This document shows positions 2,079-61,640 of a stretch of 64,000 bases of DNA, one piece after another. The stretch covers positions 8,378,170-8,442,169 of the forward strand of contig OZ038467.1 of assembly GCA_964036295.1 (NCBI GenBank), in the 5' to 3' direction. This DNA is from Plumapathes pennacea (Eukaryota; Cnidaria; Anthozoa; Antipatharia; Myriopathidae). Position 1 is the first letter of the stretch, and each line of letters starts with the position of its first letter. Both the position numbers and the translations under genes were made by a program. The notes under the pieces were generated by a model that saw only the letters and a list, made by a program, of their open reading frames with translations, made no database searches and was not told the DNA's origin.

Positions 2079-2895
2079 AATTTAAAACAAACAAGCCGAC
2101 TCCATAAGCCACTATCACAATCATGCGCAGTAGCGAATAGCACTTTTTACTGCCCACATAAACAGATGTTTGTCAAGCTAATCTCTTTGCTGAGCTTTGT
2201 TGTGTCTACAGTGTTGCATTATGAACCATAGAATAAGTTACGCACTGCGAAGTTTTATTGTCAGTTAGCCCGCCAGAAAACCTGCACTTCGCGAATTGCG
2301 CATGATTGTGAAAGTGGCTTATTAAAACTGAGTCCTTGTCATGCTGAGGTAATTGCTCCTGTGCAGGAGCAAAAACACATTGATGAAGTTTTCAATGAAC
2401 TGAAATAAACCTAAAATAATTCAAGTTGGTGCTTACATGCAGGTGCTTAGTGCTATCCAACTTAATTAAATTGAACTCGACTATGCCGTTTATCTGCATC
2501 ATCGTCCGGAGAGATATTAAGACCTTTACCTAAAAAAGTATCTAAAATTAGGAAAGAGAGATGGAGGGATTTAACTTCGACGAGTAAATCTACACAGGTA
2601 AATGTAACTTTGATGCCATCTTTTTTTGTCTCCTTGCTTGTTACGCTTTGTGTTTTGGTCGGCAATAAAACCGCAAGTTTTCCCATACAACACGCGATGT
2701 TCCCACATAAAACAACATTTTGTGCAGACTCACACGCTTTCCTCGACAAAATGAAGGCATTAGCTATTACAACCGCTTGAAATATCAGTATACCTCGAAC
2801 ACAAACTTTGTCCATGCAGGTTAGCCACAAACATCAGTCTCTCATGAGAACGTTGTTCGTTATCTTTTGCTTTACCGCCACAGTTTCAATTGATC
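2079..2895. repeat. Non-coding block shared with 15658-16800
   Basis: Sequence from AATTTAAAACAAACAAGC onward matches 15658 onward, where part of it is tandemly duplicated. A third relative of the last part (about 2770-2895) occurs at 16690-16800 and 34550-34670. Open frames here are short and not conserved between the copies. No gene is supported. Confidence 0.6.
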
Positions 2896-3182
2896 AGAAT
2901 ACTGCACAATGTGCTGGTAAGCTGAAGCCACAGAATAGGGCGCAAAGGCCACGGTGGTAGCGGGCATTACCCCTTGATCCACCAAAAAAACAAAAACAAA
3001 AAAAACAAAAAAACAAAAATTGTGAGCCCAAGTAATAGCAGCCATGGACAGCTGTTTCGGCCTTATTAGGCCTCGTCAGCATGGTATAGCTATACTTGGA
3101 CTCGGGTTCCCACATTGAGGTAACAAGCTGTAAAATCGTAAGGCTTGTGAGATGTGGCTTAATGTACATAATCAGAATACAA
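2896..3182 (-). mobile_element. Retro-inserted fragment carrying a hammerhead ribozyme
   Basis: The related locus at about 16785 reads straight through (CAGTTGATCGTTTGATC), whereas here 287 bp interrupt it, flanked by an 11-bp direct repeat TTCAATTGATC at 2885-2895 and 3183-3193. Such a target-site duplication is typical of retro-insertion. The insert carries an A/C-rich tract (about 2983-3020) and a hammerhead ribozyme read on the minus strand. Hammerheads of this kind are known from Penelope-like elements and retrozymes of animals, including corals, so a fragment of one of these is the likely source. No coding sequence is present. Confidence 0.75.
3024..3103 (-). ncRNA. Type I hammerhead ribozyme
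   Basis: Read on the minus strand. Outer stem I pairs GAGTCCAAGTA with TACTTGGGCTC (one G-U pair), and inner stem I pairs CCATG with CATGG; internal loops separate the two. Then come core CTGACGA, stem II (GGCC with GGCC around a six-base loop), core GAAA and a short stem III (ACA/TGT) ending in the cleavage triplet GTC. Predicted cleavage is between the complements of 3047 and 3046. All conserved core positions of the family are present (position 7 is variable and is C here). Self-cleavage is inferred from the fold, not shown. Confidence 0.85.
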
Positions 3183-3282
3183 TTCAATTGATCGTTTGTT
3201 CTTTCCTGAGACAGCTCGGTGCCTCACTACTTTAATCTCGTGACTTTCATTCAAATCAACACTGACATCAAAACAGCTTTTA

Positions 3283-3984: not shown

Positions 3985-6400
3985 AATATATAACGCGTAA
4001 CCGTGTAATAGGAAAGTATCTGCCAGCTGACGCGATACGTGACGTATTTTAATAGACTAGTTATTTTACAAAAAAAAGATATAACGCTTTCCCGTGTTAT
4101 ATAGCCTCATCTAAACACGCGGGAAGTTGGGAGAACACGAGAGTAGCGTAGGGAAACCACAAGGCCGCCGAGTGGTTTCCAGCGCTACTTGAGTGTTTCC
4201 CCAAATTCCCAAGTGTTTAGATGAGACTATATTACACGGGAAAGCGTCATATATATATATATACAGCCGTTTGTAGAAATTTTGAGCCCCCAATATATAT
4301 CAGTATATACAAATATCGAGTGCATTGTGGGAAGGATGATGGCTCTAAAATGCACACAAAACCGCACCAATCAAAATTTTGTCACCAAAACGATACATAA
4401 GTTTAAACTGTGATGAACCTTTTACGTCTCCCTACTTAATTTGGCTCGGAAAGCAAGTTTTTAAACCAAACTCTTCCCACAATGCACTTGATATTTGTAT
4501 ATACTGATATATATTGAGGGCTCAAAATTTCTGCAAACGGCTGTATATATATTGTAACGTTTTAAGGCCGGGCCCTCAGGCCTGGCTGAGCCTAAAGGCC
4601 CGACCGTAGCCGAGCTGACAAACGGACCAAACGACGCACACGTGAACCGGGACAAGAAGAGGTTTATTTAAACAATTCATCTGCTTTTATATAGTTTCGG
4701 TTAATAATTAGCAGTATCCGTTTTAAGATCATGGGTTCGTTTGCGTAATGGAAGATTACGCAATTATCTCAATGTGGCACACGTTACATTATTCCCCTCT
4801 TAGAAAAAGATGCGTCCCGCATCTGTAACTTTACAAATAATCTTACTTGTACACACAAGAAAAACGATTTGATTACGTAACAAGGTACCTAAAAGCACGC
4901 AAAAAAAACATTCAGCCCCGATTAGACTGAAAACCACAACACAACTAATTCTTTAGCTCCAGTGTTGTATACCAGAGTCTCAACCGACTCCAAGAAAACA
5001 GAACAGATTCACCTAAGATTTGACAAGCCTTAGCTGTCACAATCTCGAATCCCCATGCGTTCCCAGCCTCAAGTTACCAAAGATTACGTAATAAAAAGCT
5101 CTGATGTTTAACTGTACGGGCACTGCAATTACAAGAATTCCTAGTTGATAGAAATAACCAAAACATTAACAGTAGATCAGTCCCTAATATGATGACAAGT
5201 CCAGTAGTCCCAACAGTCAGCTAGTCCGCATCACAAGTCCATGTACACTCATAAAAAGAAAAGCACCACGCCAACTTTACTCAAAAATCTTCTACTCGAA
5301 TGAGTGTCCTGCATCCACCGAGTCGATCTGCACATCGCGCCAACTCTGTGTTTTCCCGCTTGATCCTCTGCCCACGAAGACAGTCGCGTCCATTTGTCAC
5401 CGGCAATCCAAGCCATTACACAATTCCCAGCTGCGCCCCATGCGTCTCTTGATCGAACCACAGGTATTAGTAGAGAGCGCCCATCACAAGGTCGAAGGCT
5501 TTCGCCTCTCAGTCAAGTTCTTGTATCCGAGTAATACCAGTTCCAACTGTCATCGAAAACCATTCCGTTTCTGTGCTGTCCACCGAGCCATCCGCTCCTC
5601 AGCCACCAAGCTTTATCGTGTCGTTACGCCATTTCTGCGCCTTCCACGAACACTAGGCTCCTCCGGTGCTGGCACTCTGCGGATCTCTGGCTTTTCCGTG
5701 TAGCCACAGACTTCAAGGTTAATCCGACACAGTTTCCTTTCTTCTTTTAAGACTACTGGCTCTTTGCTGACCACCAAGCCATCCGCTCCTCAGCCACCAA
5801 GCTTTACCGTGCCGTTACGCCATTTCTGCGTCTTCCACGAACACTAGGCTCCTCCGGTGCTGGCACTCTGCGGATCTCTGGCTTTTCCGTGTAGCCACAG
5901 ACTTCAGTCCTCCTACTTGATGCAGTTCCTCCAAATTTGCTCAGAATTTTGCCGGGTCTCGGATAAGATCAAAGGGCGACCATTACTTTGATCTGGTTCT
6001 GCCTCCGTCATTACAACGTTTCATGTCGTCTTTGGCCATCTTGATCGGATCAAAGCACTGATTCGCATCCCACCGCTGCCACCAATGTAACGTTTTAAGG
6101 CCGGGCCCTCAGGCCTGGCTGAGCCTAAAGGCCCGACCGTAGCCGAGCTGACAAACGGACCAAACGACGCACACGTGAACCGGGACAAGAAGAGGTTTAT
6201 TTAAACAATTCATCTGCTTTTATATAGTTTCGGTTAATAATTAGCAGTATCCATTACGCAATTATCTCAATGTGACACACGTTACAATATATATATATAT
6301 ATATATATTTTTTATAAAATAACTAGTATATAATTAAAATACATCACGTATCGCGTCAGCGTGTAATATACTCTAATATTACACGGTTGTTTAACCAATC
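3985..6400. mobile_element. Inverted-repeat DNA element interrupted by an LTR element
   Basis: The arm at about 3990-4085 (ACGCGATACGTGACGTATTT, then TAGTTATTTTA) is the reverse complement of about 6300-6400. A second, inner pair of arms (about 4246-4332 against 4472-4552, around TGCATTGTGGGAAG and its complement) forms another palindrome. The host element would be about 0.7 kb without the LTR insertion at 4553-6286. It looks like a MITE, possibly composite. A hairpin around 4095-4240 (TGTTTAGATGAG arms) lies inside the left half. No ORF; exact termini are uncertain. Confidence 0.55.
4553..6286 (-). mobile_element. TRIM-like non-autonomous LTR retrotransposon
   Basis: Two direct repeats, 4553-4788 and 6086-6286, start TGTAACG and end CGTTACA. 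They are almost identical apart from a 35-bp length difference, which suggests a recent insertion. On the minus strand the first LTR is followed at once by a primer binding site, TGGTGGCAGCGGTGGGAT (complement of about 6068-6084), matching a tRNA end in CCA, and the last LTR is preceded by the polypurine tract AAGAGGGGAATAA (complement of 4789-4801). This fixes the orientation. The 1.3-kb interior has no gag or pol frame. It contains a direct repeat of about 140 bp (about 5580-5710 and 5770-5907). The flanks are (AT)n, so a target duplication of ATAT type cannot be measured. Confidence 0.85.
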
Positions 6401-9638: not shown

Positions 9639-10678
9639 GTGGAAGTGAACATTTCTGAAAACCTAACTGGAGGAAACAACACAATGTTTTTTTCTCGCTC
9701 TGAGGCCATTACGTATGTCGTACTAATAATTCTCGAATCGCTCGTTGCAATCATCGGAAACTCGATCGTTTTAGCTGCGATTATAAGAACAAGACAATTG
9801 AGAGAGAAGAAATGTTATTGGTTCTGTGTCAACCTGGCAGTCGCCGATCTTCTCATTGGAACCATTGTAGGGCCATTTATGGTGCATGACGTCAGTGCAA
9901 CGATGACCGACCTGATGCCCAAGTTTCCAAGTGAATGGTGCATGAATGGATGCATATAATTATGGAATTTTTCCTGTACGCCTCGTTTATCAACTTGACA
10001 ATGATTTCACTAGAAAGAATGTACGCCACTCTATGGCCGCTGAAGCACCGCGTGCTCACAGCAAGAATTTATCGCGTAATGATCTGGCTCAGTTGGACCG
10101 CTTTGCCGATATGCACGAAATGGTCACATATAGCAATTCTATATAGTAGAAAAATCACATTAAGTTTTTCTTTTTTTTGTATTTGGCTGACTACTGATTG
10201 TTTTTTATCTCTGATAATTGCCATCAGTTACGTCAGCATTTGGATCAAGCTTAAGTTTTTCAGGCAGCAACAACATAACGTGAACACTGCACGGGATCGT
10301 AAGCTGACGAAGTCTTTGTTCCTCGTCACAGCGGTCTCAATGATGACAATTGTGACTGGCAGAGTCTTATATGCTGTTATCGATGTTCACACGATCATCA
10401 CCAATGATTTGTCAGAGCACAGGTACCTTCACATTAAATATTCTGCAGTCCTTCTCATGTTGGCCAATTCCATGTTAAATCCCATAATTTACGCGTTCAA
10501 AATACCGCAGCTGCGTCGAGCTGCGTTGCGTCTTCTCTGCAGACGGACAAGCGAGATACACGTGCCAGCGATAGAGATGAGGAACAGGGCAGAGGTAATA
10601 AATCTCCGGGCATGTGCAGTGATTGCGGACGATCCAGAACTCAATATTGCGGCAAATACTCATTGTAATCAAGAGTAG
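9639..10678 (+). pseudogene. Class A GPCR, family A, start codon lost and frameshifted
   Basis: TM1 (GNSIVLAAI), TM2 (LAVADLLIG), TM3 with SLERMYATLWP, TM4 to TM7 (NPIIY) and the tail motif PAIEMRNRAEV are all present, so this was a full-length family A receptor. Two lesions are visible. The codon matching the ATG of the paralogs (ATGAAC after the splice site) is GTG at 9645; the next in-frame ATG, 9684, lies just before TM1. A frameshift between about 9935 and 9957, around GGTGCATGAATGGATGCAT, puts TM1-TM2 and TM3-TM7 in different frames. A MITE sits in the 3' UTR (10817-11159) before the AATAAA at 11176-11181. A sequencing error could explain the frameshift but not the changed start. Confidence 0.8.
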
Positions 10679-16500: not shown

Positions 16501-17165
16501 CTACACAGGTAAATGGAACTTTGATACTTTTTTTTTTGTCTCCTTGTTTGTTACGCTTTGTGTTTTGGTCGGCCATCGAACCGCAAGTTTTCCCCTACAG
16601 CACGCGATGTTTCCACATAAAACAACACTTTGTGCAGACTTACACGCTCTCCTCGACAAAATGAAGGCATTAGCTCTTACCACCGCTTGAAATATCAGTA
16701 TACCTCGAACACGAACTTTGTCCAGGTTAGCCACAAACATCAGTCTCTTATGAGAACGTTGTTCGTTATCTTTTGTTTTACCGCCACAGTTTCAGTTGAT
16801 CGTTTGATCTCTCGTGAGAGTGCTTGGTGCCTCACTACTTTAATCTCGTGAATTTCATTCAAATCAAAATGACATCAACATATAGATTTTGAGCTAAAGA
16901 ATCCAATTAAATCGACTATGCCGTAAGGTCCCTTTAACACTCGACGAATCTTTAGTCGATCACAAGGAAAGCGTGTTTCGATATTTTAAGATAAAAAAAG
17001 TATTCAGTTTTAGCAGCTTGAATTTGTCGAATTTGAAATCCAGGTTTTAATCGTAAAATGGCGCAAGCGTATACTACAGCGTATGTAAAGCTTACTATTA
17101 CCATTTTAGTCTGACAATGAAATCTTGTTTGGTGTAAGATCAGTCACTTTCTGTTGCAGGTGAAA

Positions 17166-22590: not shown

Positions 22591-22978
22591 ATGGTGTAAT
22601 ATCGGAATTTATTACACGACTTCACATTTTCGAGTGCAAATACGGACCAAAACGAGTGCAAAGATGGGAGCGTATTGCACTCGTCAGGAACCAGATCAAC
22701 TAGTTTATTAGCTTACGTTATCAGTTTTCGCAAGCAAAGTTTACGAACGCGTCACTTTTTGTTCCATTTTGCGCGCGGCGAGAATGTTTGCCCTGCTTCG
22801 TTTGTCGTGTAATAAACAATTTATTACACGAAAAGTCGTGCAGTACGGCTGTATTTTTACTCGTCAGTTTTATTTTTTCTCACCTGAAGCAGGCTCGAAA
22901 AAATAAAACCGACTCGTAAAAATACTCCGCCGTATTGCACTCCTTCCCGTGTAATAACCTCTTTATATATTCCAGTTA
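22590..22978. mobile_element. MITE-like inverted repeat (TTATTACACG ends)
   Basis: The stretch runs from GGTGTAATATCGGAATTTAT to CCCGTGTAATAACCTCTTTA. Internal inverted copies include CGTGTAATAAACAATTTATTACACG (a perfect hairpin centred near 22815) and paired GAGTGCAAATACGG/CCGTATTGCACTC motifs. Repeated at about 37758-38143. Related ends are seen at about 4215-4240 and 56700-56840. Non-coding. Confidence 0.55.
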
Positions 22979-23812: not shown

Positions 23813-24808
23813 ATGAACGTTCCCACTGGAGTAAACGACACAAGATTTCCACCAAATCGCTTTCCTCTCTCCGAGGCCATTGCGTATATCGTGGCAATTA
23901 TTGTAGCATCACTCGCCATAATTATTGGAAACGCAATTGTTATGATAGTGTTTACAAAAACAACACAATTAAGGCAACGTAAGTCTTACTGGCTCCTCAT
24001 CAACCTGGCAGCGACAGATCTGCTCGTTGGAGTCGTTACAGGGCCACTGTGCGTGTATTTAGTAGCTGAGAGGAAGGATATCTTGGATGAGAGTAACTCC
24101 TGGCTTTTGACATGGAGCGTCGCTTCTCTGTACTTCTCGTATTCCTCTTTAATCAACTTGGCAATGATCTCTCTGGAAAGGATGTACGCCACGCTGTGGC
24201 CTTGGAAACACCACGTGCTCGCAGCAAGAAAGTATCACGTGGTGATCGGGCTCAGTTGGTTTCTGCCTGTATTCTTTTCTTGTGCCGACATCGGAGCGTA
24301 TTATCAGAAGTTTCCTCACGCTCTTCAGAATATTTTGTTCTTTTTAACCTGCTTCACACTCCTTACAATTGTCCTCAGTTATGTTGCCATTTGGAAAAAA
24401 TTTCACGCCAATCCCCAACATCATAACGTGACCACTTCACAGGATCGTAAGCTGACGAAGTCCATGTTCATTGTCACGGCAGCTTCTGTGACGAGCTGGT
24501 TTTCGTCCACTATCTTAGTCACAGTTGTTTGTCCTTTTCCTGTTTGTGACGGCTGGTCGCGGAGTAGTGCTCATCTAATCTTCTATTCTGCACTCCTTCT
24601 CATGTTGGCCAATTCCATGTTAAATCCCATCATTTACGCGTTTAGAGTCCCGCAGCTACGACGAGTTGCGCTGCGTCTTTTTTGCAGACGAACAAACCAG
24701 ATACACGTGCCAGCGATAGAGATGAGGAACAGGGCAGAGGTATTGAACCGCCGGGCATGCGCAGTGATTGCTGACGTACCAGAACTTAATATGGCGGCAA
24801 ACGAGTAG
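23813..24808 (+). CDS. Class A GPCR, family A, intact (331 aa)
   Basis: A single coding exon follows a possible 3' splice site (GACCACAG, 7 bp before the ATG). The protein has a 20-residue N-terminus with an N-glycosylation site (N8-D-T), TM1 with N40, TM2 with D69, TM3 ending SLERMYATLWP (ERM at 122-124 instead of DRY), TM7 with NPIIY (271-275), helix 8 with a Cys, and a tail holding PAIEMRNRAE (300-309). It lacks the TM3 disulfide cysteine, the TM5 proline and the CWxP of TM6. The first two losses are shared with the MECA receptor group; the assignment is inferred. Poly(A) signal AATAAA lies at 24942-24947. The copy at 38978 differs at only three residues. Ligand unknown; a peptide, lipid, amine or chemosensory role are all open. 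Confidence 0.9.
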   Translation: MNVPTGVNDTRFPPNRFPLSEAIAYIVAIIVASLAIIIGNAIVMIVFTKTTQLRQRKSYWLLINLAATDLLVGVVTGPLCVYLVAERKDILDESNSWLLTWSVASLYFSYSSLINLAMISLERMYATLWPWKHHVLAARKYHVVIGLSWFLPVFFSCADIGAYYQKFPHALQNILFFLTCFTLLTIVLSYVAIWKKFHANPQHHNVTTSQDRKLTKSMFIVTAASVTSWFSSTILVTVVCPFPVCDGWSRSSAHLIFYSALLLMLANSMLNPIIYAFRVPQLRRVALRLFCRRTNQIHVPAIEMRNRAEVLNRRACAVIADVPELNMAANE

Positions 24809-30189: not shown

Positions 30190-30360
30190 TTATACAAGAG
30201 GCACAAATTGTTTTTCACGATTTTTGTTTTATAACTCGCACCAAATGGCTTTCTCTTTGCACCGTTTTTACTAAAGTTACGTTTTAGTTTACGCTGAATT
30301 AGGGACTGATGCGTAAATACGAATTTTCTTTTAACATGTTTTGTCAATAAAGAAGGAAGT

Positions 30361-30696
30361 GGTAAATGGTTTGAACCCAGGAGTGTGAACAGTAGGTTGG
30401 TTGTGATCGTCCGGGCTAGAGTAGTCTCCAGAAAGACTGTTGTTGGTGACTGACGTTTCGACCACCTGAGCGGAAGTCATCTTCAGAGTCAAGTGAAAAG
30501 TATTCGTCAGATGGCGGTATATATGTCTCTGGTCGTAAAAGTGATTATAGTTATTATAGTGATTATAGAGACATATATACCGCCATCTGACGCATACTTT
30601 TCACTCTGAAGATGACTTCCGCTCAGGTAGTCGAAACGTCAGTCACCAACAACAGTCTTTCTGGAGACTACTCTAACCCGGACGATCACAACCAAC
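30361..30696. mobile_element. Palindromic Penelope-like retro-insertion, 336 bp
   Basis: Flanked by the 14-bp repeat ATAAAGAAGGAAGT (30347-30360, 30697-30710). The second cassette has the uninterrupted site at about 44115. Most of the insert is two inverted arms of about 135 bp (about 30393-30526 and 30557-30692) around a short AT-rich centre. Each arm contains CTGAAGATGACTTCCGCTCA and GTCGAAACGTCAGTCACC, whose order recalls a hammerhead core. A retroelement-like target duplication plus tail-to-tail arms suggests a Penelope-like origin; this is inferred. The insertion split and duplicated most of the poly(A) signal AATAAAG. Confidence 0.7.
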
Positions 30697-30884
30697 ATAA
30701 AGAAGGAAGTATTCAGTTCCATCAGCAAGCCAATACACTACAATATAGTTACAGCTTTATCCAAAGTGGTTTAAACGCCTATCAGTGCATTTTTCCAGCA
30801 TTGTTATCACAGATATTATACCTAGTTTGATAAATGTTCGGACCGCATGAGTGTCAAGTACTGTGGAGAAAATTGTATTGTAAT

Positions 30885-34547: not shown

Positions 34548-35229
34548 TTACAACCGCTTGAAATATTAGTATATCTCGAACACGAACTTTGTCCAGGTTA
34601 GCCACAAACATCAGTCTCTCGTGAGAATGTTGTTCGTTATCTTTGCTTTCCTGCCACATTTTCAATTGATCGTTTGAACTCTCGTGAGAGTGCTCGGTGC
34701 CTCACTATTTTAATCAAACTGACACCTAATCCAACGAAATCGACCATGCCGTAAGGATCCTTTAACACTCGACGAATCATTAGTTGAAATTTAAACATTG
34801 CTGAATGCTTTTGGTTTGCACCAGGCAGAGTTATCATATAGTCATATAACATAGCATGTTTGTTCCTTCCATTTTTCTTTGTTGGAAATTCACCGGAATA
34901 CATTTAGAAAGTAAATCTATCTCCAAAAATCAGTCTCTCATGAGAACCTTGTTTGTTATCTTTTGCTTTACCGCCGCAGTTTCAATTGATCGTTTGATCT
35001 GCTCGGTGCCTCACACTTTAATCTCGTGACTATCATTCAAATCAAACTGACATCAACATGGATTTTGAGCTAAAATATTCAATGAAATCGACCATGTCGT
35101 AAGGTTCCTTTAACACTCGGCGAATCTTTAGTCGATCATAAGGAAAGCGTGTTTCGATATTTTCAGATCAGAGTAAGTAATCAGTTACTTGTTTGGCGTA
35201 AGATTAGTCACTTTCTGTTTCAGGTGAAA

Positions 35230-36199: not shown

Positions 36200-38420
36200 A
36201 CATACTCCCAGCAGCGTTTGGATTTCTTTGCTTCAAACAATCTCGCAGCAAACTAGTTTCCTTGCGGCACGCATGCTTTTATTCTGTTAATACTAACATA
36301 AACAAAAAAGAAAATCCAATTCACTGAAAAAGTTATTTTTGCCATGTTACAACAAAATGAACTGTACAGAAATCGTATAAGAAATTATGTAAATTCTCGG
36401 CGTTTCGTTTGATATTTTGCTCTCAGGCTCTTTTCCTTCATCATTCGGAGATTCCGTGAAACTGACTCGCTAAAAAATTATGTGAAATGTTCAAACAAAT
36501 GAAGTAGGACTCTGATAACTTGCTACGAATGAAACTTTTCTCATGTTCCTCATGCGCCGGTATCCCCTGACATGCGAGGGTCACGTGACTCCTTCGTGAC
36601 AACTTCAGGTAGTGTGGCGAAAAAGATGACGTCACGTTTTAGTCAATTTGTTTCAAGCGACGGTGACAATAGACTTTAGGAACAGAATTAATAACAGCTT
36701 TTATCAACAAAGATAAGTCTGGTTTTGAGGCCAATGAGTATGTTTTTTAAAGTACAGTGAAGTGACTTTAGTAAATGGAAATTAATATTCATAGAAATAA
36801 TACAGAGGCCAAATAAACAATCATTTCTAACTTCATGCACTACAAAGTTAATATAAGTTTGTTATATATATATATATATTTATGACCCATCAAATATTTT
36901 CCCCCGCGCGTGATTGGTAGAATCGTGACACGTGACCGAATAACCCCTGCCTGGCGAACTATCGCTGTTTATTGACAATATCCGAACACAATTTTAAATA
37001 TTAATCACAAAAAACCATTAGGAGATGACTACCGAGGAGGACATCAATTCATTTGTCAAAAAAACAGTTGCAGAAAGCACCAAAGAGCTTCACAGTCCTT
37101 GAGCCATTATTTGCGCTGCGAGAGGAAATAGTTGAAGGATAATAAAGACAATAAACTACTTTTGGCTTCGGAAATATGCACGGATAATTGTCCTTGGACA
37201 TTATCTGTTCCTCGAAGCTCACAGTTGCCCTCGAGCTTCGCTCTCGGGCAACTGTTCGCTTCTCGGAACAGATAATATCCACTACGAGTAGAGCCTGTCA
37301 AGCGAGCGGCAATAAATATTCTGTCATAAAGACAAACAACATCACTCAATTAAAACTTCTTCAACCGAGCAGCAATAACTATTCTGTTATAGAACGTAAA
37401 CAAACAAGCCCACTCAATTCGAACTGAGTCCTTGTCATACTCTAATTGCTCCTGTGCCTGAGCTAAAACACATCAAGACAATTGTCAGTGAACAAATAAA
37501 CCTGCGCTAATTTCCATTAGTATATGCAGGTGTTTAGTGTTATCCAAACGAAATAAATCGAACTCGACTGTTCCGTTTACCCGCATCATCGTCCAGAGAG
37601 ATATCAAGACCTTCCAACTGTCGATAATTAGGAGAAAGAGGTGGAAGGATTTAACTTTGACGCATAAATCTATAAAGGTAAATGGAAATTTTGGTAAATG
37701 GTAAATGCATTTTGTAATGAATTTTTCTAAGACAACCACAGTTTTTAAGTGTTAGGTAATGGTGTAATATCGGAATTTATTACACGACTTCACATTTTCG
37801 AGTGCAAATACGGACCAAAACGAGTGCAAAGATGGGAGCGTATTGCACTCGTCAGGAACCAGATCAACTAGTTTATTAGCTTACGTTATCAGTTTTCGCA
37901 AGCAAAGTTTACGAACGCGTCACTTTTTGTTCCATTTTGCGCGCGGCGAGAATGTTTGCCCTGCTTCGTTTGTCGTGTAATAAACAATTTATTACACGAA
38001 AAGTCGTGCAGTACGGCTGTATTTTTACTCGTCAGTTTTATTTTTTCTCACCTGAAGCAGGCTCGAAAAAATAAAACCGACTCGTAAAAATACTCCGCCG
38101 TATTGCACTCCTTCCCGTGTAATAACCTCTTTATATATTCCAGTTAATTAAATGTTCTTGCAGAAAAAAAAAAAAACAAAAACAAAAACAAAACTAAAGA
38201 GGAGTATTCATACAAACGGCTTCTATGCAACCAGAAAAAAAAAAACAAAACAAACAAACAAAAAACAAAAAACGATAGAATGAATAAGAAGGTGTACTTG
38301 TTGTTTTAATTCAGTTATGTTGACGGAGGCCAACAATCGGTACATCTAGCGTATTATTAAAGGCTTTGTTATAAATTATAGTCTGGAGGTTGACGCGGAA
38401 AAGTTTTTTTCTACCCGTAA
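36200..38420. repeat. Spacer, second cassette (matches 18106-18547 and 21405-23254)
   Basis: Holds the empty Harbinger site, a short (TA)n tract, the hairpin repeat (about 37194-37278) and the TTATTACACG-ended inverted repeat (about 37758-38143). No gene. Confidence 0.6.
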
Positions 38421-58708: not shown

Positions 58709-61385
58709 TAAGCCTTAGCAACACGGTTGTGATAACCATGGTAACACTGCAACCCAAGGTCCCGCAAGCTGCACTTAGCTTAATGGATAATAAGCAAACT
58801 AAATATCACAAACTTACTTTATCAGTCACCGCTTCAGTGTTCTTCTTTCATGGAAGATTTGTTTGGAGCATAGTAATCTTGATACCCATGACATCAGCAT
58901 GAGAGTCCACCTGTTCAGCATAATAACAGGAAGTTCGGAGGTTGAGATGATAACACTTGTAACAAATACATGTAACGGGAATTAAACAGCATACCGCACC
59001 CTCTCTTTATGTTGTCTACAAAGGCGACAAATAGGTGAGACTTGTACAAGGTGTGATGCCCAATTTAGAAATCAGGGCACACACATTACGACTGTGTCTC
59101 ACTTGTAATCATATCCGAGACAGTGTCACGATCAGTAGACTGGCGGGGAGAACCGGTAATCATATCCGGACAGGGTCACGATTAGTATAGTCTCGCGGGG
59201 AGAACCGATAAAGTGAGGACCGTCTGCTACACAGAATGGAACAATGATGCAATGACAACTGACAGCTGAATCAACAAGGCAAGCTTTTGAATGACCAGTT
59301 CTCACTTTTGTGCTTCATTTGGGTGCTGACAAAGAGTTTGTCAAAAAAAGTTTGTCTGTATTGTTCTTTCCCAGGTTTCCCTTGGCCGTAAAATAAACAG
59401 GAGGTTATAAAAAATGGCGCCGAGATTTAACCCTTTCACTCCCAAATTCTCCCGACCTTTTAAGAATGACAGGTGTGAGCGATGTGGTGAGAATTGACTG
59501 TCCAATCAGCTTTCATCTGAACCAACTTTCAAATGGTAAATTCTCCATACTGTATAGTCTCTGGTGAGAGACTCAAGAGATAGATCACTCTTGGGAATAA
59601 AAGGGATAGTAGTCTACGATTTCGACATCTCATCGTTGTATCGGTGTGGCGACTCAAAAATAAACACAGGGAATACAAACTTCTTATTGACCGAGCAAAT
59701 ACACCAATCAGAGCGCGCGATTTCACCGGAAGTAGCTCCAGCCATATAATAAAAACATTTAAAACGCGCGTCAGAAAGGCCAGAACATTTTATATCGATG
59801 AACAGAAGTTTCGGGGTCTCGCTAGTTAATACTTTTCTTATTCAAAGCACTTCATATGTGTATAAACAAATATGTACGGGGAGAGATTACTTATTCAATA
59901 AGCACAAGTGCCGTGGAAAGGCTGTCAGGCAATTTAGTTTCTTACTATTAAATGAACGGGCAACGAAGTTGCAGGTACTGAGGTGATGAAGTTTATACAA
60001 ACAGACGTACTCTTATAAGAACAACATATGCAGTTTGCTTAGTATTTTCATACTAATATATGTTTTATTGTTCTTTCTTGCTGCCAACGAACTCCTGCCC
60101 TCTGATTCATTACAGATTAAAAAAACGCCACAAGCCTGGGGCTGACAGATTTTCACGCCCGCATACTTCCGTATTCATTGGATAGTGACTATAAGCACGA
60201 CCAGTCTATTAAACGTGAAGGTCCTTCAGTTTCAAGTTCGACCAGTGCAATATATTTTTTGTAAAAACTGTCAACATATTTCTAAGACTTCGGCTCACAC
60301 AATTTCATTTTTTAATCTAAATTAATGAAGTTATAAAACTAAATGAACAAAAACTTATTTAAAACAATTTGAGACGAGTATAATAAGGTGGAGACACTCG
60401 GTTAGAAAGAGAAAACACTTCCTTTTCATTAGATGAACAAGTACCCCGTGGCTGCAGTACCAGCTGCAACAATATTGTTTTAATGATACAATAATGGTCG
60501 CGGTAGTGAAATTACATCGAACTTTTAATAATTATTATCAAGCGCTCTGCATAGTATAAAGTGATTGGACATTCTCGGATAAGGCACCCGACAACGGATA
60601 TTCCAGCAAAGAACGTTGTGGAAGAAACAAACACCAAAGCGGTTGTAAAGCAAAGGAAAGGTAACTGTTACTCAATCTTGTTTCCTGTCCTAGTTGTACA
60701 GGTCAACTTTATAACTTCAATTTACATCAAATCATACTCAGTCATAAAAAATGTAAATTTAAAACGAGGAAACCGCTCTGTAAATTTATGTATTGAGTCG
60801 ACTAAGGGTGGATGCATGAAAGCTCTGTAAATTGTTTTTCCTTTTACATCGAGACCTACTGTTCGGTACCAGTCAAACTTTCCAAACTTTGTTAACATAT
60901 GAAGATACTGCTGGTAACATCGAATCGATTATTTTGGTCTCTTATCATATGTACTGACTTAGCTAGAGAACTGACGAGAGAGAACGTGAAAATCTACTAA
61001 TAAGACTCTATACCTGAATTCCAAATCTTTAGGCAACAGCCCACAATGGAATTAATACGGACTTACAGTCTTGGTTAACTAGATTAGTTCTTCGATATCT
61101 GTGAATAATGTTGCCTTCACGTCAAACGGTAAACAAGCTGAACTGTAATATTTTTGGTTCAAAACATCCGCGGACAATCTTTCTACCCATGCCAGACCAT
61201 AACGAGGCATGCATGAGTATGAACGTCGGTTTAAACCGACGAATGTAACTTTTAATACAACGTACGAGAGATTAATTTTAAAACAGGAAATTAAAAAGTC
61301 GCCCCAACAAAGAAAAGGTAGAAAATCGCTTCTTTACGAGGTTCGAAAAGTAGCGCAAATCGCGGCGCATTCTTCAAGGGGCAAT
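58709..61385. other. Gene-poor spacer with small repeats
   Basis: No gene is supported. A tandem pair of about 52 bp (GGGGAGAACCGGTAATCATA unit) lies at about 59104-59208. The dispersed motif of 30885 appears in the opposite orientation at about 59675-59750. The ORFs here are under 90 codons and unconserved. Confidence 0.45.
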
Positions 61386-61640
61386 GTCATGAGATGCGCA
61401 TACGCGCGCGTTTGATCGAATCTTGAAACATTGTTTTCAAGTTTTCAAGCGTTTAAAAATCCAAGATTGAGTTCACAAAGGCGGCGAGCGATTTATCGGC
61501 AGATCCACCACCGTTGTGGACGCAATCTTAGATTTTTAAACGCTTGAAAACTTGAAAACAATGTTTCAAGATTCGATCAAACTTGAAAATAATGTTATCA
61601 TGATTCGACCAAACGCGCGCATGCGCATGCGCATGACATG
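61386..61640. mobile_element. Near-perfect palindrome of about 255 bp
   Basis: Arms of more than 50 bp (CGAATCTTGAAACATTGTTT ... and complement, about 61418-61470 and 61530-61582) enclose a 60-bp centre. Outer GCGCATGCGCAT-rich arms are present on both sides, and part of the right arm is repeated (AAACTTGAAAATAATGTTAT). It looks like a MITE that could form a cruciform; no clear target duplication was found. Confidence 0.6.

Follow-up and report, generated by a model that had tools for sequence, protein, structure and literature searches.

Two fixed start sites of reverse transcription in a hammerhead retrozyme of Plumapathes pennacea, with a Penelope-like element as candidate mobiliser

Introduction

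A stretch of 64,000 nucleotides from the genome of Plumapathes pennacea (GenBank assembly GCA_964036295.1, contig OZ038467.1, positions 8,378,170 to 8,442,169), hereafter the window, carries a 287-bp insertion whose minus strand contains a type I hammerhead ribozyme. The locus raises the question of which autonomous element mobilises animal retrozymes, and the family to which the insertion belongs bears on it by genomic evidence. The available portions of an earlier study (PMC7229834) name long interspersed elements (LINEs) or Penelope-like elements (PLEs) as candidates, PLEs as a strong one, with no junction evidence, and those of a 2020 review (PMC7761336) state that no conserved motif tells the mobiliser of metazoan retrozymes, PLEs or Terminons being favoured on co-occurrence. 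The best explanation of the present data as a whole, to which we give a probability of about 80%, is that of a metazoan non-LTR (long terminal repeat) retrozyme inserted by two-site priming, with a PLE enzyme acting in trans. The ribozyme copy belongs to a known kind, and the new finding is a two-start-site insertion rule common to the retrozyme and the PLE.

Junction mapping

Copies of the retrozyme in the genome (290 Mb, 24 contigs) were mapped onto a reference unit taken from locus L009 (1547–1799), in which position 1 is the C of CUGACGA and cleavage falls after position 33. A target-site duplication (TSD) was accepted at a score of at least 9, shorter duplications not being accepted. Among 77 mapped insertions, removal of L002 and of seven further copies of the AGCATAAAAACTG insertion (both discussed below) left 69 distinct ones, and removal of 12 others having no duplication score of at least 9 left 57; the same score was reached by 14 of 408 pairings of mismatched flanks. 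The duplications measure 9–19 bp (13 or 14 bp in 28 of the 57), and the insertions comprise 36 simple and 21 head-to-head copies.

Reverse transcription of the retrozyme RNA begins at two fixed sites, A (unit 150–173) and B (unit 190–208), which lie about 40 nt apart and outside the hammerhead. In the simple copies the sense 3' end, which corresponds to the start of reverse transcription, lies at A in 27 cases and at B in nine, accounting for all 36. In the head-to-head copies each of the two outer ends marks a start point, and 39 of these 42 ends are at A or B. Each of the 18 copies that could be classified pairs A with B (0 AA, 0 BB; three of the 21 unclassified), a count reached by shuffled pairing of the same ends in 6 of 200000 trials. 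Ten A-primed simple copies have at least seven extra bases at the 5' junction, and in eight of them (L013, L018, L020, L056, L060, L079, L083 and L097; not L003 and L050) an antisense piece of B is present there; these eight are read as head-to-head copies having one very short arm. L071 is the sole B-primed copy with such a filler, which holds no piece of A.

A second query (unit 128–222) supplied a held-out set of 14 new loci, from which L113 and L121 (no such TSD, both with 3' ends at A) and L117 (a member of the repeat group described below) were dropped. This query spans A and B and hence favours copies having both together; in the 11 remaining loci the simple 3' ends were at A or B in 5/5, the outer ends in 11/12, and the six head-to-head copies consisted of five AB and one pairing A with 210. 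A short antisense piece of B was again present in L108.

Of the 12 insertions set aside for want of such a TSD, L016 pairs A with B, the 3' ends of L022, L028, L030, L042, L043 and L099 are at A, and in L027 (two rows) the outer ends lie at 126 and at A. Taken alone, the first row of L007 pairs B with B and L036 pairs A with 176; each is continued by a second piece, ending at A in L007 and at 208 in L036, and both read as A with B plus a nested insertion.

As to the template, none of the 57 insertions ends at unit 28–38, around the cleavage site at 33/34. A linear self-cleaved monomer was rejected for this reason, since its copies would end at 33/34 and would have been kept by the 33-nt core pattern used in searching. 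Simple inserts exceed one turn of the unit (>258 bp) in 22 of 36 cases and reach 774 bp, which argues for a circular or multimeric template; the template would be a circle in our interpretation. In circular folds predicted for four units, A forms a 12-nt loop that is unpaired in three and partly paired in L061, and the loop at B is mostly unpaired in three and less so in L100. Both loops fall outside the hammerhead, A being nearly opposite to it in the circle. A kissing contact between loop A (UGUAAA) and loop B (UUUACA) was considered and discarded: it is possible in 16 of 27 aligned rows, ten others having one base fewer in A and one a larger loss, with no compensatory change.

The context before the duplication leans towards AAAC: of 46 A ends, 29 have an A at −4, 28 have an A at −3 and 31 have a C at −1, the last being partly biased by the choice of the longest duplication. 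Microhomology at the start junction averages 1.6 nt and is only a hint, the mean at the 5' junctions being the same (15 junctions) and the swap control ignoring the longest-duplication bias.

A Penelope-like element of the same genome

A PLE was reached through GIY-YIG matches. This copy, L122, possesses a 554-amino-acid open reading frame (ORF) with RVT_1 and GIY-YIG domains, and its 3' region carries CTGAAGATGACTTCCGCTCAGGTAGTCGAAACGTC, a motif also found by pattern search at 30.4–30.7 kb of the window, where two PLE 3' ends are inserted head to head (Table 1). L122 and L123 are likewise head-to-head with an extension on one arm, and the TSDs of the three copies read are 13, 13 and 14 bp. 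Genome-wide, at no more than one mismatch, there are 1065 matches to the arm pattern and 714 to the tail, the reversed controls giving 0. For a count of pairs, the exact matches listed for contig C1 were used (95 arms, 63 tails), and neighbouring arms within 4 kb, assumed to be single insertions, gave 26 head-to-head pairs. Exactly one tail was present in 21 pairs, none in five and two in none; shuffling reached 21 in 128 of 200000 trials.

The one-tail structure is already known for PLEs. Endonuclease-containing PLEs (PAc of Anolis, PMC11167929; Adineta vaga, PMC3846280) resemble the retrozyme in having two nearby internal start sites, in the use of both target strands and in a tail on one of the inverted arms, and PAc also has a hammerhead within the element. 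They encode reverse transcriptase (RT) and GIY-YIG domains, whereas the present retrozyme does not, nor does it have a tail sequence in common with the PLE of its own genome. The Anolis PLE protein of PMC11167929 begins reverse transcription at two neighbouring internal positions. It cleaves both target strands and extends them, and the tail seen in genomic copies corresponds to the segment from one start to the other. The same source reports start sites that are no different for top and bottom strands in vitro; in the present insertions A and B may each occur on either side, so this is compatible with an exclusion operating per insertion. The word retrozyme is absent from its main text. For Adineta, PMC3846280 describes a tail that one of the inverted pLTRs may or may not carry. 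Its discussion of head-to-head structures differs from the reading given here, as it considers self-priming on an antisense template. No application of the one-tail structure to retrozymes was found in the literature searched, which left out most subscription papers.

Because the PLE of this genome leaves the same pattern of inverted arms, a tail on one arm and duplications of 13–14 bp, a PLE enzyme is the best reading of the trans mobiliser, and the PLE protein probably makes the retrozyme insertions. RT and GIY-YIG motifs were also looked for in the flanks of the retrozyme loci extracted at that stage, which gave no lead.

Further features of the PLEs were noted. Both arms of the insertion in the window (30347–30710) carry the hammerhead-like motif CTGAAGATGACTTCCGCTCAGGT.GTCGAAACGTCAGTC. 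The PLE tail (window 30361–30390) reads TCCTGGGTTCAAACCATTTGCCA in L122, recalling the T arm and CCA end of a tRNA, which may be chance. Other GIY-YIG matches lie in open frames of 1359–1443 amino acids, larger than that of L122 (C3:6079693, C4:15313300, C5:13905117, C2:29461214 and C4:21845851).

The retrozyme family

The genome was searched with a 121-nt query (42 matches from 40 scored of 267 candidates), with a 33-nt core pattern (85 places; reversed control 0) and with the Rfam model RF00163 (37 matches listed, from 74 scored of 41234 candidates, 34 of them above the cut-off; the window copy is absent from this list). Tandem copies (L009, L030, L022 and L060) set the unit length at about 253–260 nt.

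The window copy is a metazoan non-LTR retrozyme, an assignment that follows from its size, a GC content of 0.43–0.47 (insert 0.432, unit 0.466), the lack of a long ORF, the tandem copies and the TSDs. No ORF of at least 150 amino acids overlaps the insertion in the window. As described by Cervera and de la Pena (2020, PMC7229834), the metazoan non-LTR retrozymes of Acropora millepora and others are alike in their canonical type I hammerhead, in being low-GC non-coding repeats of 170–400 nt that occur as monomers, dimers and multimers, and in TSDs of more than 4 bp; the unit is 253 nt here, as against 220–245 bp in A. millepora. The initial annotation had offered retrozymes and PLEs as hosts of such hammerheads, and the former fits. 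Membership of a PLE was rejected, the 287-bp insert having no RT or GIY-YIG ORF and the PLE of the genome sharing no sequence with it; a LINE-dependent short interspersed element does not fit either, there being no A tail at the sense 3' end and two 3' ends instead of one fixed end.

A single retrozyme insertion, recognisable by its duplication AGCATAAAAACTG (shorter or changed in some), recurs in L065, L066, L070, L072, L085, L094, L095, L102 and L117; this is probably a retrozyme carried inside another repeat. A related hammerhead in L105 (1001–1048) and L106 scores 38.5 bits, above the Rfam cut-off; the repeat that contains it measures at least 2 kb, with 98% similarity between the two places. 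The same score is common to 11 among the RF00163 matches listed.

The hammerhead ribozyme

The initial annotation had described a type I hammerhead inside a small retro-insertion, and the core, three stems and an insertion with target duplication were all found. On the minus strand, 3079–3047 reads CTGACGA-GGCC(TAATAA)GGCC-GAAA-CAGCTGTC. The CUGANGA, GAAA and GUC elements are all kept, which supports, at the level of sequence, the prediction that the ribozyme is catalytically intact, the cut being expected between 3047 and 3046. Stem I begins with an inner 5-bp helix (CCAUG/CAUGG) followed by a UAUA/CU internal loop; its outer helix, given earlier as 11 pairs with one G-U, was close to the mark and in fact has 15 pairs including one U-G, with one bulged U. 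Stem II has 4 bp (GGCC/GGCC) closed by the hexaloop UAAUAA, and stem III 2 bp capped by the palindromic loop AGCU. Both candidates for a tertiary contact between loops 1 and 2, namely the internal loop of stem I and hexaloop II, are recognisable in the sequence. The minimal hammerheads of PLE pseudo-LTRs, reportedly described by Cervera and de la Pena in 2014 as type I and lacking helix III or loop contacts, would have the same topology and core; unlike them, the window hammerhead has a 2-bp stem III, the stem I internal loop and hexaloop II.

RF00163 matches the window copy at 3041–3085 (minus) with 28.8 bits and an E-value of 3.8e-5 in 421 nt, the gathering score being 34. A covariance score below threshold had been named in advance as a result that would speak against the ribozyme; the model does match at the site, the score falls short and so touches that point in part, and 34 of the 37 genome matches listed exceed the cut-off. 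The whole window gave no Rfam match at the gathering threshold, and a permissive scan placed Hammerhead_HH9 at the same site (24.9 bits, E-value=0.078). A loose hammerhead motif has four matches in the window against 1.35 expected, which alone is non-significant. A chance hammerhead was nevertheless rejected, and the ribozyme taken as real despite these weak window statistics, because the core pattern occurs at 85 places in the genome against none in the reversed control and because a sister subfamily with the loop CAAAAA and the same palindromic stem III lies above the cut-off (42.2 bits, the top score among the RF00163 matches listed).

Proposed mechanism and alternative explanations

In the proposed mechanism, a multimeric transcript would be cut by the type I hammerhead into monomers of about 253 nt, which a host ligase would close into a circle; these cutting and circle steps have been supported by others in coral, mussel and axolotl. 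Each 3' end of a staggered target break would then prime one of the sites A and B. Two long cDNAs would give a head-to-head insertion that ends in A on one side and in B on the other, and a short or lost second cDNA a simple insertion, such as the window copy. The PLE enzyme would mobilise the retrozyme in trans. We further think it fairly probable that animal retrozymes are satellites of PLEs, their circular RNA mimicking the two-site priming platform of the PLE, with a dimeric PLE RT docking on one circle and the break ends priming different loops, never the same one. If this is true, the mutual exclusion of A and B in each insertion would directly document an enzyme of two subunits acting on a single RNA, and this record could be read from any genome that has retrozymes. 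The two-start-site rule offers a simple test applicable to any genome, and the 253-nt RNA, probably a circle, a second substrate for learning how PLEs, a third class of eukaryotic retroelements, prime both strands.

Mobilisation by an ordinary LINE with an APE-type endonuclease, of the L1 kind, appears improbable. Its TSDs would usually fall in the range seen here, and the head-to-head copies would be products of twin priming, which in L1 yields 5' inversions. Inverted L1 arms end at scattered internal positions, whereas the outer ends of the retrozyme gather at A and B and always combine the two in the classified copies; furthermore, the copies have no 3' A tail, the nick context is AAAC-like and not TTTT/AA, and the same pattern is borne by a PLE family of this genome. 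Still less credible is a linear RNA template with natural 3' ends at A or B, produced by termination or processing, in which the fixed ends would reflect the RNA and not the enzyme. Fixed 3' ends would follow from it directly, and the TTTT immediately before B (GATTTTACAG) could act as a Pol III stop; no T run is present at A, and the long T tract at unit 62–71 holds one of 78 start points (L098, unit 71). Such an RNA is also at odds with the many inserts longer than one turn, and it leaves the pairing of A with B in head-to-head copies unexplained. A third alternative concerns the window hammerhead alone, which could be a dead passenger in a fossil copy, its ribozyme no longer cleaving. We regard this as doubtful. 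It would agree with the sub-threshold RF00163 score, with an insertion older than a local duplication and with the retention of the core in only three of nine hammerhead regions from loci picked without the core (L107, picked through Rfam, being set aside and L117 counted twice); all core positions are retained in the window copy, and the stem I variant GCTATACCATG is common to 21 copies with the same 3' context, as against 41 with GCTATGCCATG.

Several observations weigh against two-site priming by a PLE enzyme in trans and an intact ribozyme, which we nevertheless prefer. The windows for A and B were set after the first insertions had been seen, which leaves the 11 held-out copies as the independent test, and one of the 12 outer ends in that set is at 210, two bases outside the preset window. 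Three of the 42 outer ends in the main set lie elsewhere, at 209 (paired with A) and at 126 and 71 (each paired with B), and in 10 of 36 simple copies the 5' end falls within the A and B windows. Between the PLE and the retrozyme there is no BLAST match, either at the tails or to the unit, so that recognition of the retrozyme by the PLE would have to be structural, and the spacing of the ends differs (about 40 nt in the retrozyme, about 30–36 nt in the PLE). The five PLE pairs without a tail were possibly produced by counting exact matches only. Of 43 unpaired PLE arms, 33 have no tail and 10 have one; five of the 33 have an opposite-strand tail to their left, four of these within 200 bp, which is what pairs having a very short second arm should show. 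Regarding the ribozyme, there is the low covariance score, and the hammerhead core is not returned when the region or the insert is folded by minimum free energy; folding of this kind disregards non-canonical core contacts.

Features of the window

The coordinates are collected in Table 1. The window copy is A-primed, with its sense 3' end at 2896. The 11-bp duplication and the empty paralogous site reported in the initial annotation are both confirmed, three such sites being present in the window. Its description of the host as a fragment does not hold, since the insert amounts to about one full turn of the unit plus a few bases, with the T-rich tract expanded. L002, 52 kb away, has the same insertion and similar flanks, which places the insertion before the local duplication.

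Table 1. Coordinates of the retrozyme insertion and associated features in the window
Feature	Position	Strand	Basis
Retrozyme insertion of 287 bp, roughly a single turn of the ~253-nt unit	2896..3182	minus (sense)	TSD, alignment to L009 unit, empty sites
TSD, left copy, TTCAATTGATC, 11 bp	2885..2895		sequence reading and junction mapping
TSD, right copy, TTCAATTGATC, 11 bp	3183..3193		sequence reading and junction mapping
Expanded T-rich tract, downstream of the hammerhead on the sense strand	2983..3019	minus	sequence
Type I hammerhead with outer stem I	3024..3103	minus	sequence reading and RF00163 match
Predicted self-cleavage site, after C17 of GUC	3046..3047	minus	inferred from core
Loop B of the unit, family start site B	3129..3142	minus	junction map, fold, alignment
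Loop A of the unit, family start site A	3160..3171	minus	junction map and fold
Empty target site in paralogous stretch, 11 bp once	16791..16801		flank comparison
Second empty paralogous site	34661..34671		flank comparison
Third empty paralogous site	34981..34991		flank comparison
Head-to-head insertion of PLE 3' ends, 14-bp TSD ATAAAGAAGGAAGT, extension of ~30–36 nt on left arm only	30347..30710		sequence reading and L122 comparison

Elsewhere in the window, adjoining inverted repeats occupy 4079–4552, with arms of 80 nt at 96% and 77 nt at 82%. Foldback repeats at 22833–22945, 38001–38113 and 61383–61606 give sub-threshold matches to Rfam microRNA families, for which inverted-repeat transposons are the most likely identity. 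The first two, about 15 kb apart, look identical, and near-identical receptor ORFs are spaced likewise. These belong to a cluster of similar receptor-like ORFs at 9935–62993, of which the one scanned (23813–24805) contains a 7tm_1 domain, that of a rhodopsin-family receptor.
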